In this document: piece after piece, positions 7,512-49,653 of the stretch
How the letters are laid out: every line of letters starts with the position of its first letter
Numbering within the stretch: position 1 is the first letter of the stretch
Source of the DNA: Saprospiraceae bacterium
Lineage (GTDB): Bacteria > Bacteroidota > Bacteroidia > Chitinophagales > Saprospiraceae
Assembly (NCBI GenBank): GCA_020629315.1
Contig: JAHDDO010000007.1
Coordinates: 9,067-73,066, forward strand
Direction of reading: 5' to 3'
DNA: 64,000 bases
The notes under the pieces: model-generated
Database searches by the model: none
What the model was told of the DNA's origin: nothing
The model's input: the letters and a program-made list of their open reading frames with translations, nothing else
Made by a program: the position numbers and the translations under genes

Positions 7512-10500
7512 TTATAAAGTCACTTTAATACCACCACCAATGGTTTTATTCGCTGGATAGAATCCTTTGTCAATGCCTGTATCCAAAATCCATCCGGTAG
7601 TTCCGATTTCAGGATCGAATCCTCTATAATTAGTGATCGTTAAAAGGTTATTTGCTGAAGCATAAATTTTTATACCTCTGATCTTGGCTCTACTTAGCAG
7701 ACCTTCTGGTAAATTATATCCCAGTTGAATATTTCGTAATCGTAGGAATGACCCATCCTCTACATAAAAATCAGAAGGGCGTTGATTATTATTAGGGTCA
7801 TTGGAAACCAATCGAGGCATATCCAAACTTGGATTCTCTTCCGTCCACCTATCTAGCCAGAAATCTTGATAATTAGTAAAGGTGATATCTGATCGTTCAT
7901 ATGTTCTAAAGATATCATGACCAATTTGCGAACCTAACACAACATTGAAATCAAAACCTTTAAACTTAGCTCCTAATGTGGCACCAAAAATATGATCTGG
8001 CCATGGGCTACCTATATGTCCAATGTCATCCGTGTTAATAATACCATCCCCATTAACATCTACAAATCGTATATCTCCTGGAGATGCGTTCGGCTGTAAT
8101 AGGTCACCCGAACTATTTATGTGTGAGAAAACTTCTTCTTGAGTTTGGAAGATACCGTCTGTTTTATAGCCAATAAAATGACCTACCGGAAACCCTTCTG
8201 TCATTCTGGTAATCGGTTGATTTCTAACAGGCCAACCCCAACCATCAATAAAGCCTGATTCACCCGCCACGTCAATCACCACATTTGTAAATGTCGTGTA
8301 ATTTAATCCTGTGGTAAATTTCACACCGCCGGCATTGAACTTATAATTCAAGCTAGCTTCTATCCCTGAATTTTCTATCTCACCTAAATTACTGATCGGA
8401 TTATTGGTTGCTCCAATGTACCCTGGGATCACCTGATCCATTAATAGATCTTTGGTATTCTTCTTATAAAAATCAACTTCCCCCGTCAATTGATCATCCC
8501 AAAGCCCAAACTCCAATCCTATATCTAATTGCACACTCTCTTCCCACTTTATATTCGGGTTTGGCGGAGTCGCCAATGCAGAACCAGTATTTAGAGCCGG
8601 ATCTACCCCAAATGGATACGAAAATGCATTCTCCACCTTAGAAGCAAAGGTTAATGGTCGTATACGATCGTTACCATTTATCCCCCAACTAAACCGAACT
8701 TTCATAAAGTTTAATGGACCTAGATTAAAGAAATTTTCATCAGAGATTACCCATCCCGCCGAAAATGATGGAAATAAGCCGAACCGATTGGCTGATCCAA
8801 AGTTAGAAGAGCCATCTCTACGCAAGGTCGCTGAGAAAAGATACTTACTATCATAGTCATAAATGAGTCTACCATAGTATGAGATCAATGCATAGTCTAC
8901 ATCTATACTTCCATATGCCTGATCAATCGTGTCTTGACCCGCATCTAGAATCTGGAAATTTTCATCAAATTGAACTTCTGTAGGAATAAATGATGAACTT
9001 CCTCCTCCTCTCTCTTGCTCTGTAGTTCTGTAGGACGTTCCTACTATAACATCAAAATGATGATTATTTAAAGTATCCTTATAATTAATGTAATTTTCAA
9101 ATTGTGTGGATTGGAAGAATCCGAATCCTTGAACGATGTCGTTACCAATGTTAACTGCTGAAGGGTGGAATGCAAAGTCAGGTACAAAGTTCCTAAACTT
9201 AAACCACCAATACTCTATACCCACATCTGAATGGAATCGTAGCTTATTGATCGGCTCAAAATCAAGAAATATATTACCTAGTATTTGATCTCCATGTCCT
9301 TGTCCATTTGTTACGAATAATCGACTCAAAGGATTATAATGTTCTTTCTGCACCCATCTAGACTGAGCAAATCCATATTGGGCATTAGGATCATAAACAT
9401 CCGTTATTGGATCATAAGCAAATGCATCCGCGATTACAGTGCCAAATGCATCATTGATACCTATATTATTATTACTTACTCGGTTTACATATATATTCTC
9501 ACCAATCTTTAAATACGGATTGATCTGCTTTGATCCATTAATCCGCATGGCATATCTTTTATAATTTGATTTATCACCACCGACTACTCCTTTCTGATCC
9601 CAATATTCTAGTGAAAGGAACATGTTATTCGCTGAGGCTGATAAGCGATGAGATTGCGTATTTGCTGGATTGAAAATTACATCCATCCAATTCGTATTTA
9701 CCGTATTTTCACCTAATTGAGGAAAACCTAAGCTATTAATAGATACCGTTTGGCCCCCATTTTCAAATTTTTCTCTAGTTAAGGCGATATAATCATCCGC
9801 CCCAAGCATGGACGGTAAACGCCATGGCTCTGCTGTGCTAGTGAAGGACTCAAATATCATTTCACCCCCCTTCTTACCTTTCTTAGTGGTTACTATAACT
9901 ACCCCATTAGCCGCTCTCGCTCCATAAATAGCACATGATGCTGCATCTTTAAGTACATCTACACTTTCTACATCATTGGGGTTAATATTATCTAAATTCC
10001 CTACTTGCAAGCCATCGACAATAAATAATGGCGTATTATCTCCATTCGTACTAATCCCACGAATCAAAATAGCCTTTGAAGCACCTGGTTGACCAGAAGC
10101 CTCACTAACCAACAATCCAGATACTTGACCTTCCAATGCAGATTGTACGTTTTGAACTTGATAGCCATCTAAATTTTCTTCACCAATCTTCGAAATGGCA
10201 CCTGTTGCTACTTTTTTCTTTTGCACCCCATAACCAATGACTACCACTTCATCCAATAATTCACTAGCTGGACTCATGACTAGATCAATGGTCTCTCTAT
10301 CATTAATGGCTACATTGTAGGTTTCAAATCCTGTATAAGAAAATACTAGTGAATCCGCAGAAGCTGGCACTTCCAATGTATAATTTCCATCTACATCAGA
10401 AATTGTACCTCTATCAGAGTTACTTACTAATATGGACACACCTATTAATGGAAGATCGTCCTCGGCTGATATTATATTACCTTGAATCGTCCTGTTTTGG

Positions 10501-45784: not shown

Positions 45785-45824
45785 GCTTTGTGTTAAGTGA
45801 AGGGGTGTTATATTCCAGTTGAGT

Positions 45825-45832
45825 TATATTTG
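45825..45832 (+). promoter_or_regulatory. -7 box (TATATTTG) for the antiporter
   Basis: Exact TAnnTTTG on the plus strand. It lies inside the ORF-track version of the antiporter gene (which starts at 45819), so transcription would begin at about 45838, showing that translation starts at 45852. Confidence 0.5.
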
Positions 45833-45851
45833 TACAAACCAATCACGGACC

Positions 45852-47681
45852 ATGTTAGAATACGCGAGCATAATTGTACTAGGAATTTTAGCCCAATGGA
45901 TAGCTTGGAGAACTAAAGTACCTGCGATATTACCCCTCATTATTATTGGTTTATTAGTGGGCCCTATTTCTACTTTGTTTATGGAGGGAGGTGAAAAATT
46001 CATTGAACCGATATGGAATCCTGAAACGAATCATGGTCTATTTCCAGGTGAGAGTTTATTCTATTTTGTTTCACTTTCCATTGGAATCATTTTATTTGAA
46101 GGAGGTTTAACACTAAAACGAAGCGAGATAAAAGATGTAGGTCCGTCTATTTTAAAATTGATCACGTTAGGTAGTTTAATCACTTTCATTTTGTCTGGAT
46201 TAGCTGCATGGGGAATTTTAGGTATAAGTCCAACCATTGCATTCCTTTTTGGTGCTTTGATTATAGTTACAGGTCCCACTGTAATTGCTCCTATTTTACG
46301 AAATGTACCCCTCAATAAAAATGTTTCTACTGTATTAAAGTGGGAAGGCATTCTTATTGATCCGATTGGCGCATTGACCGCTGTTTTAGTCTTCGAGTTT
46401 ATTAATGCGGGAGGGGATCATTTTACTGCCCACGCCTTAAAACAATTTGGTCTAATCGTTGCAGTTGGGGCAGGCCTAGGTTCATTGAGTGCTTATGGCT
46501 TGTATCTGCTACTAAAAAACCACTTAATTCCTCACTACCTAATCAATGTCTTTACCTTGGCATTGGTATTGATGGTATTTGTGGTTTCTGACGAACTAGT
46601 GCACGAGTCAGGACTTTTAACCGTGGTTCTTATGGGCCTTATATTGGGAAATCTAGATCTACCCAACTTTAAAGAAATACTTTACTTTAAAGAGTCACTG
46701 AGTATATTACTGATATCCATATTATTCATTTTGCTGTCCGCTAATATCGAGTTAGTGGATCTTCAACAATTACTTCACGTAAAGTATCTATTGCTTTTCC
46801 TAGCTGTAATTTTAGTGATACGACCATTAGCCGTTTTTGCAAGTACTATTAATTCTAATCTCAACTTAAATGAAAAGCTATTTATTAGTTGGATGGGACC
46901 AAGAGGTATTGTGGCAGCAGGTATTGCATCTTTGTTTGGATTAAAGCTTACACTCAACGGCGTTGAATATGCTTCTCTGGTCGCTCCATTAGTATTCATG
47001 ATTGTATTAGGTACAGTTCTTTTAAATGCAACGACTGCAAATCTTGTAGCAAGAATGTTGAAAGTTATCCAAGAAGCAGCCAATGGAATTCTAATTATTG
47101 GTGCTCACAAAGCCTCACGATTAATAGCTAAGTATCTTGATGACAATGGAAGACAAGTTGTTGTAGTTGATAATAATGCTTCCAATATTGATAGGATAGT
47201 GAAAGAAGGATTGAATGGACAACAATATGATATTTACTCTGATGGCTTATCAGATAATTATGAACTCAATGACATAGGTTATATAATGGCGATGACTGGG
47301 AGCAATGAAGTAAATAAATTTGCTATAAATAAGTACGGAGAAGAACTAGGAAGTCAAGGAGCCTATAGATTAATATCTGCGAAAGAAATGAAGGATACCA
47401 GCCTAAATCCTACGGATGGGCTTTTCTCTCAAACGGATGATTATATAAATCTGAGTGAAGTAGCAAGAGACTACCCTAGCATTCATGAGCTTCCAGTCAA
47501 CAATTCTGAAGAACTCAAGTCAGCATTAGAGGCTGTATATGAAACTACAAGTGCTATTCCTTTATTTGTTAAGCAATCTAATGGCAAGATTGATATCATC
47601 ACTTCCAATGTACCAAACTATGAGGTGCAAGAAAGTAGTCATTTTGTCTATTTAGGCAAAAACATAGATAAAACATCATAA
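45852..47681 (+). CDS. CPA-type cation/proton antiporter with Rossmann domain
   Basis: A 609-residue inner-membrane antiporter (NhaP-like). I start at ATG 45852 (MLEYASI), because the -7 box at 45825-45832 excludes the track start. Twelve or so membrane segments run to about residue 400, with the ion-binding regions LFEGGLTLKRSEI, GALIIVTGPTVIAPILRN, and GPRGIVAAGIASLFG. A cytosolic TrkA-N-like domain follows (LIIGAHKASRLIAKYL), but the GxGxxG dinucleotide motif reads GAHKAS, so NAD binding is doubtful. It exports Na+ or K+ for protons to control pH and salt. Confidence 0.9.
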   Translation: MLEYASIIVLGILAQWIAWRTKVPAILPLIIIGLLVGPISTLFMEGGEKFIEPIWNPETNHGLFPGESLFYFVSLSIGIILFEGGLTLKRSEIKDVGPSILKLITLGSLITFILSGLAAWGILGISPTIAFLFGALIIVTGPTVIAPILRNVPLNKNVSTVLKWEGILIDPIGALTAVLVFEFINAGGDHFTAHALKQFGLIVAVGAGLGSLSAYGLYLLLKNHLIPHYLINVFTLALVLMVFVVSDELVHESGLLTVVLMGLILGNLDLPNFKEILYFKESLSILLISILFILLSANIELVDLQQLLHVKYLLLFLAVILVIRPLAVFASTINSNLNLNEKLFISWMGPRGIVAAGIASLFGLKLTLNGVEYASLVAPLVFMIVLGTVLLNATTANLVARMLKVIQEAANGILIIGAHKASRLIAKYLDDNGRQVVVVDNNASNIDRIVKEGLNGQQYDIYSDGLSDNYELNDIGYIMAMTGSNEVNKFAINKYGEELGSQGAYRLISAKEMKDTSLNPTDGLFSQTDDYINLSEVARDYPSIHELPVNNSEELKSALEAVYETTSAIPLFVKQSNGKIDIITSNVPNYEVQESSHFVYLGKNIDKTS

Positions 47682-47746
47682 TATATAGTGAAATGATTAA
47701 GTGTTGATTATCTATGTTTTTCGCTTTCACCTACACCAATTGAGGG

Positions 47747-47770
47747 TTTTCACCTATTTTTTAGTGAAAA
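47747..47770. repeat. TTTTCAC/GTGAAAA inverted repeat
   Basis: TTTTCAC (47747-47753) pairs with GTGAAAA (47764-47770) around 10 nt. Two more GTGAAA/TTTCAC copies occur at about 47687 and 47724, so four copies fall in 85 bp just after the antiporter gene. The region is non-coding; it could be an mRNA 3' structure or a set of binding sites. Confidence 0.35.
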
Positions 47771-47839
47771 TACTTGCTTAGGCTTAAATGTTAACATATC
47801 TTTATAATGCTTACCTCAAAAAAGGTAGTGTTGGAATTC

Positions 47840-47868
47840 TTGGTCAGTATGACCTGACCTTACATTTG
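47840..47868 (+). promoter_or_regulatory. Orphan promoter with palindrome in the spacer
   Basis: TTG (47840-47842), an 18-bp gap and TACATTTG (47861-47868) make a full Bacteroidota consensus promoter on the plus strand. The gap is filled by an inverted repeat, GGTCAG-N6-CTGACC (47842-47859), which is operator-like: a protein bound there would block the promoter. No gene start follows within reach. Confidence 0.55.
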
Positions 47869-47874
47869 TAATTG

Positions 47875-47940
47875 CGACCTAAGCTTTTACAAGTTTTGCT
47901 GATAAAAATTAAGCACCTCATCTTGACGGTGCTTTTTTTT
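47875..47940 (+). ncRNA. Candidate small RNA, about 65 nt
   Basis: Between the orphan promoter (47840-47868) and the strong terminator (47911-47940) lies a short region with no ATG and no supportable ORF. The predicted transcript is about 65 nt, with a 5' single-stranded AU-rich half and the terminator hairpin at the 3' end, the layout of a typical bacterial sRNA. It might instead be only a remote terminator for the antiporter. The promoter and terminator are seen; the RNA is inferred. Confidence 0.4.
47911..47940 (+). terminator. Strong intrinsic terminator
   Basis: AAGCACC (47911-47917) pairs with GGTGCTT (47928-47934) around a 10-nt loop and is followed by a run of T residues (eight with the end of the stem). 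It would end the antiporter transcript or the candidate sRNA. It overlaps by two bases the stop of the convergent YdeI-family gene. Confidence 0.85.
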
Positions 47941-48451
47941 ATATATCCTTGAAATCTTTAAAAAATTGGTTCAACTCCTTAAAGTCTAGTGCCCCATTAC
48001 TCATCTTTAAGTATTCGGAAATGGCTAGCGCCTTTTTAAGTCTAGTTGCAGATTGTTTAGGCTTTGCCACCATAAAAATAAGATTACGTTGTTTCCCTGG
48101 GGTGAGAGCATGAAAATGTTTATCAGTGACTGGTTCTTGTTTAAGGAGCTCTCCGAATTCCTCCGGCATTTCCATTCCATATTTACTAGTATCTTTTTCG
48201 ATCTTCACAGAAATCTCATCTCCTTGCCAGAGACTTAGTTTCTTTCGAATTTCTTTATTCAGATTGATAAAATAACCCCCTTCACCGTCCGGCATAAATG
48301 CACAGTGAATTTTTATGTCATCATTAAAAATGCAAATAAATCTCCGGTCTTTTAAAGGTTGAAAATGTGACACCACATGTCCAGGTACTTTCATATGGTA
48401 GGCCCACAAGTTGGACTCGAACTTATCTAGTTTAGTAGTAAATTCTATCAC
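47939..48451 (-). CDS. YdeI/OmdA-family protein with DUF1905
   Basis: A 170-residue protein. The N-terminal DUF1905 domain (about 1-95, WAYHMKVP, FNDDIKIHCAFMPDGEGGYFINLNKEIRKKL) precedes a YdeI/OmdA-type bacteriocin-protection tail (about 105-160, HALTPGKQRNLIFMVAKPKQ). Salmonella YdeI/OmdA contributes to survival of cationic antimicrobial peptides, but that role may not carry over. Its start overlaps the previous gene's stop by 4 bp, so the two paralogous proteins are coupled. Confidence 0.8.
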   Translation of the reverse strand: MIEFTTKLDKFESNLWAYHMKVPGHVVSHFQPLKDRRFICIFNDDIKIHCAFMPDGEGGYFINLNKEIRKKLSLWQGDEISVKIEKDTSKYGMEMPEEFGELLKQEPVTDKHFHALTPGKQRNLIFMVAKPKQSATRLKKALAISEYLKMSNGALDFKELNQFFKDFKDI

Positions 48452-49044
48452 TTTGATCTATATTTATCGTTTAGTCCAATGCCATCAATGATCAACGATT
48501 TTATTTTCTTCAATCTACTTTCCTTTGTGGCCGCTCTCTTTGCATTACGAATGTATTCTTTGAATTCATTTTGTTTGCTTACAGAAAAGTTATTATACTG
48601 CTGCGCTAGTTCTTTATCATTATTTAAAGCTACTTGCAAAAGTTCAGGCATTTCTACTGGTCCCTTTTTTTCCGGTTTTATTTCTAAACCATCATCACTA
48701 TTTCTCTTTGCCTCTTCTATATAAGCAACTATCATTTTTTCATTTATATCTTCCAAAGAAGTGAAGCGCCAATGACGTAGGCCAACTGTTTTACCTTCCT
48801 GCACATTAATAAGGACTTGCAAAGGATCTGAAAGAAATACACCTTGATGAAACCAAATAGTAATAAAATCCTTGAAAGCGCCAATGCTTAGTACATTTTT
48901 ACCATTCCACATATATATGGGTTGTAACCACTTTATCCCTTCTTCTAAATCACAAGAAATTGCCATTTCACGCAAAGCGAGTAAAATTTCCTTTCTTGGA
49001 TGATCTCCTTCAAAGTAATCATTAGCTGTTTTATACTTCTTCAT
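48448..49044 (-). CDS. DUF1801 plus YdeI/OmdA-tail protein
   Basis: A 198-residue protein with an N-terminal DUF1801 domain (about 15-115, with IKWLQPIYMWNGKNVLSIGAFKDFITIWFHQG) and a C-terminal YdeI/OmdA tail (about 140-195, FSVSKQNEFKEYIRNAKRAATKESRLKKI). It is the upstream member of a two-gene operon with the DUF1905/OmdA gene, sharing the same C-terminal module. The 5' end abuts the divergent SET-domain gene. Molecular role unknown. Confidence 0.8.
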   Translation of the reverse strand: MKKYKTANDYFEGDHPRKEILLALREMAISCDLEEGIKWLQPIYMWNGKNVLSIGAFKDFITIWFHQGVFLSDPLQVLINVQEGKTVGLRHWRFTSLEDINEKMIVAYIEEAKRNSDDGLEIKPEKKGPVEMPELLQVALNNDKELAQQYNNFSVSKQNEFKEYIRNAKRAATKESRLKKIKSLIIDGIGLNDKYRSK

Positions 49045-49563: not shown

Positions 49564-49653
49564 CTAATCAGGTAGCATGCCTGCTTTATCAAGTGCAAAA
49601 GCAAGAACACCAGCTACTGCAAAAAAGGATAGGGCTAAAATTAAAACAGTCAT
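49564..49653 (-). CDS. 29-residue membrane miniprotein
   Basis: Too short for the ORF track. ATG at 49653 to TAG at 49564 reads a 29-residue protein beginning MTVLILALSFFAVAGVLAF and ending DKAGMLPD: one uninterrupted hydrophobic helix and a short charged tail. A good Shine-Dalgarno (AGGAAGGA) lies 14-20 nt upstream of the ATG, a perfect inverted repeat (49694-49717) lies 41-64 bp upstream and a terminator follows. Function unknown; single-helix miniproteins commonly regulate membrane complexes. Confidence 0.55.
   Translation of the reverse strand: MTVLILALSFFAVAGVLAFALDKAGMLPD

Follow-up and report, generated by a model that had tools for sequence, protein, structure and literature searches.

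The spacer at 47682–47938 of the window (the 64,000-nt stretch analysed here, positions 9067–73066 of its contig in a 3.9-Mb genome) is, on balance, best explained as a free-standing, non-coding small RNA (sRNA) gene on the + strand, found in one genus as far as seen, whose RNA would in the relatives probably start at an upstream promoter, matched in the window by P1, and would act by base-pairing. The comparison is between the window and two genomes of the same genus, G001 and G002, three species in all. What is observed is a conserved 3' block followed by a terminator, the lack of an antiporter gene alongside them in G001, and the absence from both relatives of the promoter (P2) proposed in an earlier note. 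Transcription, the start site and the function of the sRNA are what we infer. The spacer probably contains the end of an sRNA gene shared by two sister species.

Two genes converge on the spacer. On the + strand is a Na+/H+ antiporter with a TrkA-N domain (45819–47681; PF00999, 1.4e-40; PF02254, 8.2e-8; start codon not settled), the nearest named relatives of which are Saprospiraceae MAGs, and on the - strand is a YdeI/OmdA-domain protein gene (47939–48451; PF13376, 4.2e-12; PF08922, 1.1e-9), whose stop codon touches the T-run of the terminator. The earlier note had described an orphan promoter, palindromic operator and terminator enclosing no ORF, and the letters of all three elements are indeed present in the window where it placed them. 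The spacer contains no ORF of at least 50 aa, and at this level no conserved ORF was found; shorter frames in the spacers of the window, G001 and G002 were compared by eye only. Two adjacent OmdA-domain genes, with DUF1905 and DUF1801, respectively, occupy 47939–49044 (- strand) and overlap by a few bases. In another convergent spacer of the window, a 29-codon frame (49564–49653, - strand; MTVLILALSFFAVAGVLAFALDKAGMLPD) has the same stop in G001 and G002, is preceded in all three species by TTG-N20-TAnnTTAG and is followed by a terminator-like hairpin; it has no Pfam match and probably encodes a small membrane protein missed in the annotation.

Among promoter, palindrome and terminator, only the terminator is clearly above chance. 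This intrinsic terminator (47911–47940, + strand) has the stem AAGCACC/GGTGCTT at 47911–47934 followed by T8, with a folding z of −5.1. Across the three species the stems read AAGCACC/GGTGCTT, AACAC/GTGTT and AAACATTC/GAATGTTT, the bases having changed and the pairing having been kept, with z = −5 to −7. The hairpin of the window is usable in both directions. In G002 the stem reaches −15.1 kcal/mol on the + strand against −8.0 on the YdeI strand; the difference comes from G-U pairs, which form in the + strand reading and are lost in the other. The pairing retained through base changes in three species and the strand bias in G002 indicate that an intrinsic terminator on the sRNA strand has been kept by selection.

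G002 has the same convergent antiporter/YdeI pair. A search of the whole G001 genome gave no match to the antiporter; YdeI is present and the flanking gene order is otherwise kept. Despite this absence, G001 retains the 3' block, the terminator and a T9 tail. The M36 peptidase gene next to its spacer faces away, as do the two genes beyond, and the nearest gene on the terminator's strand is ~6 kb off. With the antiporter gone and the next gene facing away, the terminator therefore has no mRNA to end there, and the conservation is independent of a neighbouring gene on the same strand.

The conserved 3' block (CTTTTACAAGT..GCTGA.AAA, 47884–47906, + strand) aligns with p < 0.0002 against each relative, and is a possible pairing or binding segment. 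The similarity of the 5' block of the window gives p = 0.025 for G002 and 0.018 for G001; these region-by-region p values come from composition shuffles, several regions having been tested without multiple-test correction. Outside the 3' block the window copy is only weakly similar to its relatives, and a 9-pair covariance model made from G001 and G002 did not find it in the 64 kb (8.4 bits in a 701-bp stretch). Identity between G001 and G002 in the sRNA spacer is not above that in other spacers of the neighbourhood, which may hold promoters, so similarity alone does not single out this spacer.

The alternative to be taken most seriously, unlikely as we consider it, is that this is an ordinary terminator between the convergent antiporter and YdeI genes, that the promoter-like string is chance and that there is no sRNA. 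The convergent layout fits this account, as do the lack of any other terminator seen after the antiporter and the chance-level frequency of promoter-like strings, and the candidate resembles a bidirectional terminator between convergent genes both in position and, in the window, in being usable on both strands. However, it differs from such a terminator in persisting without the antiporter in G001, in following a conserved block and in favouring one strand through its stability in G002, all of which an ordinary terminator leaves unexplained.

An sRNA gene is also what the earlier note had suggested, and that part of its proposal is upheld by the terminator and the block upstream of it, kept in three species including the antiporter-less G001; the exact promoter and operator are not. 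Its model, in which P2 drives a 65-nt RNA under a repressor bound to the palindrome, we regard as doubtful in that form. P2 is TTG-N18-TACATTTG (47840–47868, + strand; TTG at 47840–47842, 18 nt, then TACATTTG at 47861–47868) and is found in this species only. Transcription from it would be expected to start near 47873 and to give an RNA of ~65 nt that includes the conserved 3' block, which speaks for the model. The palindrome GGTCAG-N6-CTGACC (47842–47859, + strand; arms 47842–47847 and 47854–47859) fills the P2 spacer and shares one base with its TTG. Also in favour of P2, the −7 box TAnnTTTG is enriched about fourfold upstream of genes in the genus (31 against 7.1 expected), and P2 carries the sole perfect copy within the spacer, so either promoter may serve in this species. 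The distance from the −7 box to TTG has no preferred value in the genus and a −33 spacing is uninformative, in agreement with Flavobacterium johnsoniae, in which no −33 motif was identified (PMC7366714).

Against the model, both elements are of a kind readily produced by chance. TTG-N17-20-TAnnTTTG occurs 7 times on the two strands of the window, compared with 6.2 ± 2.2 in Markov shuffles, and is present in ~4% of shuffles of the spacer; of the shuffled spacers ~49% contain an inverted repeat with 6-bp arms, and a given 30-nt stretch does so in ~4% of cases. Only once in the window is such a promoter followed by a strict terminator within 30–120 nt, and 60 single-strand shuffles gave no such case; the combination is rare mainly because the terminator is real. 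The stretch 47846–47882, which includes most of P2 and the palindrome, is without similarity to either relative (p = 0.44 for G002 and 0.80 for G001), and the promoter-like site that the relatives share lies further upstream. The palindrome has no second copy with up to 3 mismatches in the whole genome, and it is rejected as a repeated operator; there is thus no sign of a shared repressor. Loss of the promoter in close relatives with the terminator kept, which the earlier note had named as evidence against itself, is what is seen in G001 and G002, which retain the terminator and the 3' block but lack P2 and the palindrome. The precise P2 and "operator" strings, confined to this species, could have arisen by chance or could belong to folds of the RNA itself; P2 may still be used in this species alone.

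Of the two candidates in the window for a promoter inside the spacer, P1 has counterparts in both relatives and P2 has none. P1 is TTG-N20-TATCTTTA (47774–47804, + strand), with a start expected near 47809; the aligned counterparts are TTG-N20-TAATTTTG in G002 and TTG-N20-TAATTTTA in G001. The two relatives have in common TTG-N20-TAATTTT[GA] with identical spacing, and this shared upstream promoter, matched in the window by P1, is probably where their RNA would start. The pattern ACTTG-N20-TAnnTTTR is present in 0.2% of shuffled spacers; the window's P1 has A instead of G as the last base of its −7 box. Upstream, 35 bp are unchanged between G001 and G002 (GACAAGCC...AAATAGG; GACAAGCCTAAACAAAAGGGTATTTGAAAAATAGG). 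The box CACCTAT-N14-ACTTG (47751–47776, + strand) is common to both relatives, with N15 there, and is possibly an activator or repressor site as read from the alignment. As a family-wide regulatory site the box was rejected, being not recurrent in 199 family genomes. The forward similarity of the promoter region of the window gives p = 0.0006 to G002 and 0.11 to G001.

That the sRNA lacks a promoter and is cut from a long 3' UTR of the antiporter mRNA is very unlikely: the antiporter stop is ~230 nt upstream of the terminator and the interval holds no other clear terminator, but the element stays in G001, where the antiporter is gone. A cis role on YdeI, whose mRNA end is touched, is less likely than base-pairing with mRNAs elsewhere, as is a role as a UTR fragment of the antiporter.

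The window segment 47751–47832 resembles the G002 promoter segment (L003, 1650–1750) reversed as well as forward. For 47762–47818 the reversed alignment to G002 gives p = 0.0005 and the forward one p = 0.23; when the left flank is added, the forward alignment gives p = 0.0006 and the reversed one p = 0.69. The ends of the G002 segment, CACCTATTTT / AAAATAGGTG, form a 10-bp inverted repeat that is decayed in G001 and the window. The reversed similarity would be produced equally by a double motif facing in opposite directions or by an old small inversion. There is a slight chance that the sRNA is genus-specific with its promoter motif doubled in this way or flipped, in which case the sister species would differ in the length and start of the RNA. 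An active switch is not supported, because intact inverted repeats are absent from G001 and the window. An invertible promoter bounded by such repeats and flipped between species is most improbable, since the better reversed alignment and the repeats at the G002 ends are offset by the forward alignment with the left flank, by the shortness of the repeats, which are not intact in each genome, and by the fact that two oppositely oriented copies of a binding motif would produce an identical pattern.

Taking the sRNA gene as the preferred reading, the RNA predicted from P1 spans 47809–47938 (+ strand), ~130 nt, with ~141 nt in G002 and ~129 nt in G001. It would fold into three hairpins, leaving the short segment GCTGA.AAA open ahead of the terminator hairpin, with transcription ending at 47911–47940; a start at P2 would shorten it to 65 nt, with the conserved 3' portion still included. 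The folding z of the P1 RNA is −3.1 (window), −2.5 (G002) and −4.1 (G001), mostly from the terminator, and without it the values are −2.1, −0.2 and −1.8, respectively, not clearly better than shuffles. The minimum-energy fold in the window contains HP1, HP2 (the palindrome), HP3 and the terminator. HP3 (47864–47894, + strand; arms 47864–47871 and 47887–47894) is weak alone (p 0.004 to 0.10); its 5' arm overlaps the −7 box of P2 and its 3' arm lies within the conserved block. At about the place of HP2, alternative hairpins can form from AGGTGTTG/CAATGCCT in G002 and GGCTT/AAGCC in G001, and a like arrangement of hairpins is possible within 1.9 (G002) and 2.5 (G001) kcal/mol of the optimum. That the palindrome and the −7 box of P2 are hairpin parts is a suggestion from the modelled folds and not a result, because the terminator-less folds do not stand out clearly from shuffles.

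Searches of family-genome samples (298, 199 and 398 genomes) by DNA similarity, pattern and covariance model gave no copy of the element outside the genus. The weak match in one of these (G177, E 0.004) was rejected, as it holds a hairpin of its own and shows no block of the candidate sRNA by eye. No antiporter/YdeI layout was seen in other genera among the loci fetched. The earlier note knew of no matching RNA family, and this agrees with Rfam, where none is above threshold in the window; GcvB (RF00022), at 20.6 bits against a gathering threshold of 42, is taken as chance, and 6S RNA (RF00013) was rejected, having no match in the three genomes of the genus with control genomes positive. A Pfam search of the same three genomes gave no match to Hfq, again with positive controls.

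The RNA would most likely base-pair with mRNAs elsewhere, through its conserved 3' block or else its exposed 5' region, and would do so without Hfq, which is absent from the genus by the Pfam search. This mechanism is argued from the kind of gene, as represented by GibS (PMC7366714) and Rfp18 (PMC9723704), likened by features and not by sequence. Like GibS and other intergenic sRNAs of Bacteroides thetaiotaomicron (PMC7366714), the candidate would be free-standing, with a candidate promoter of Bacteroidota type and an intrinsic terminator, a predicted length of ~130–145 nt, AT-rich sequence and conservation among close relatives; it differs from them in being predicted from sequence. With Rfp18 and other independent transcripts of Flavobacterium psychrophilum, where promoters are of the TAnnTTTG kind (PMC9723704), it has in common genus-level conservation, stem-loops and no known family, but Rfp18 was found by transcriptomics and the candidate here is predicted.

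Small RNAs of the Saprospiraceae appear unstudied, no paper on them having come up in one search of an open library. The candidate would add to a known kind of gene and matches no known RNA family, and it illustrates that a promoter and operator of textbook appearance can be missing from sister species while the 3' end of the RNA stays. If expressed, it would be a well-delimited sRNA candidate in a lineage without recognisable Hfq, for which a relative without the neighbouring gene provides a natural test.
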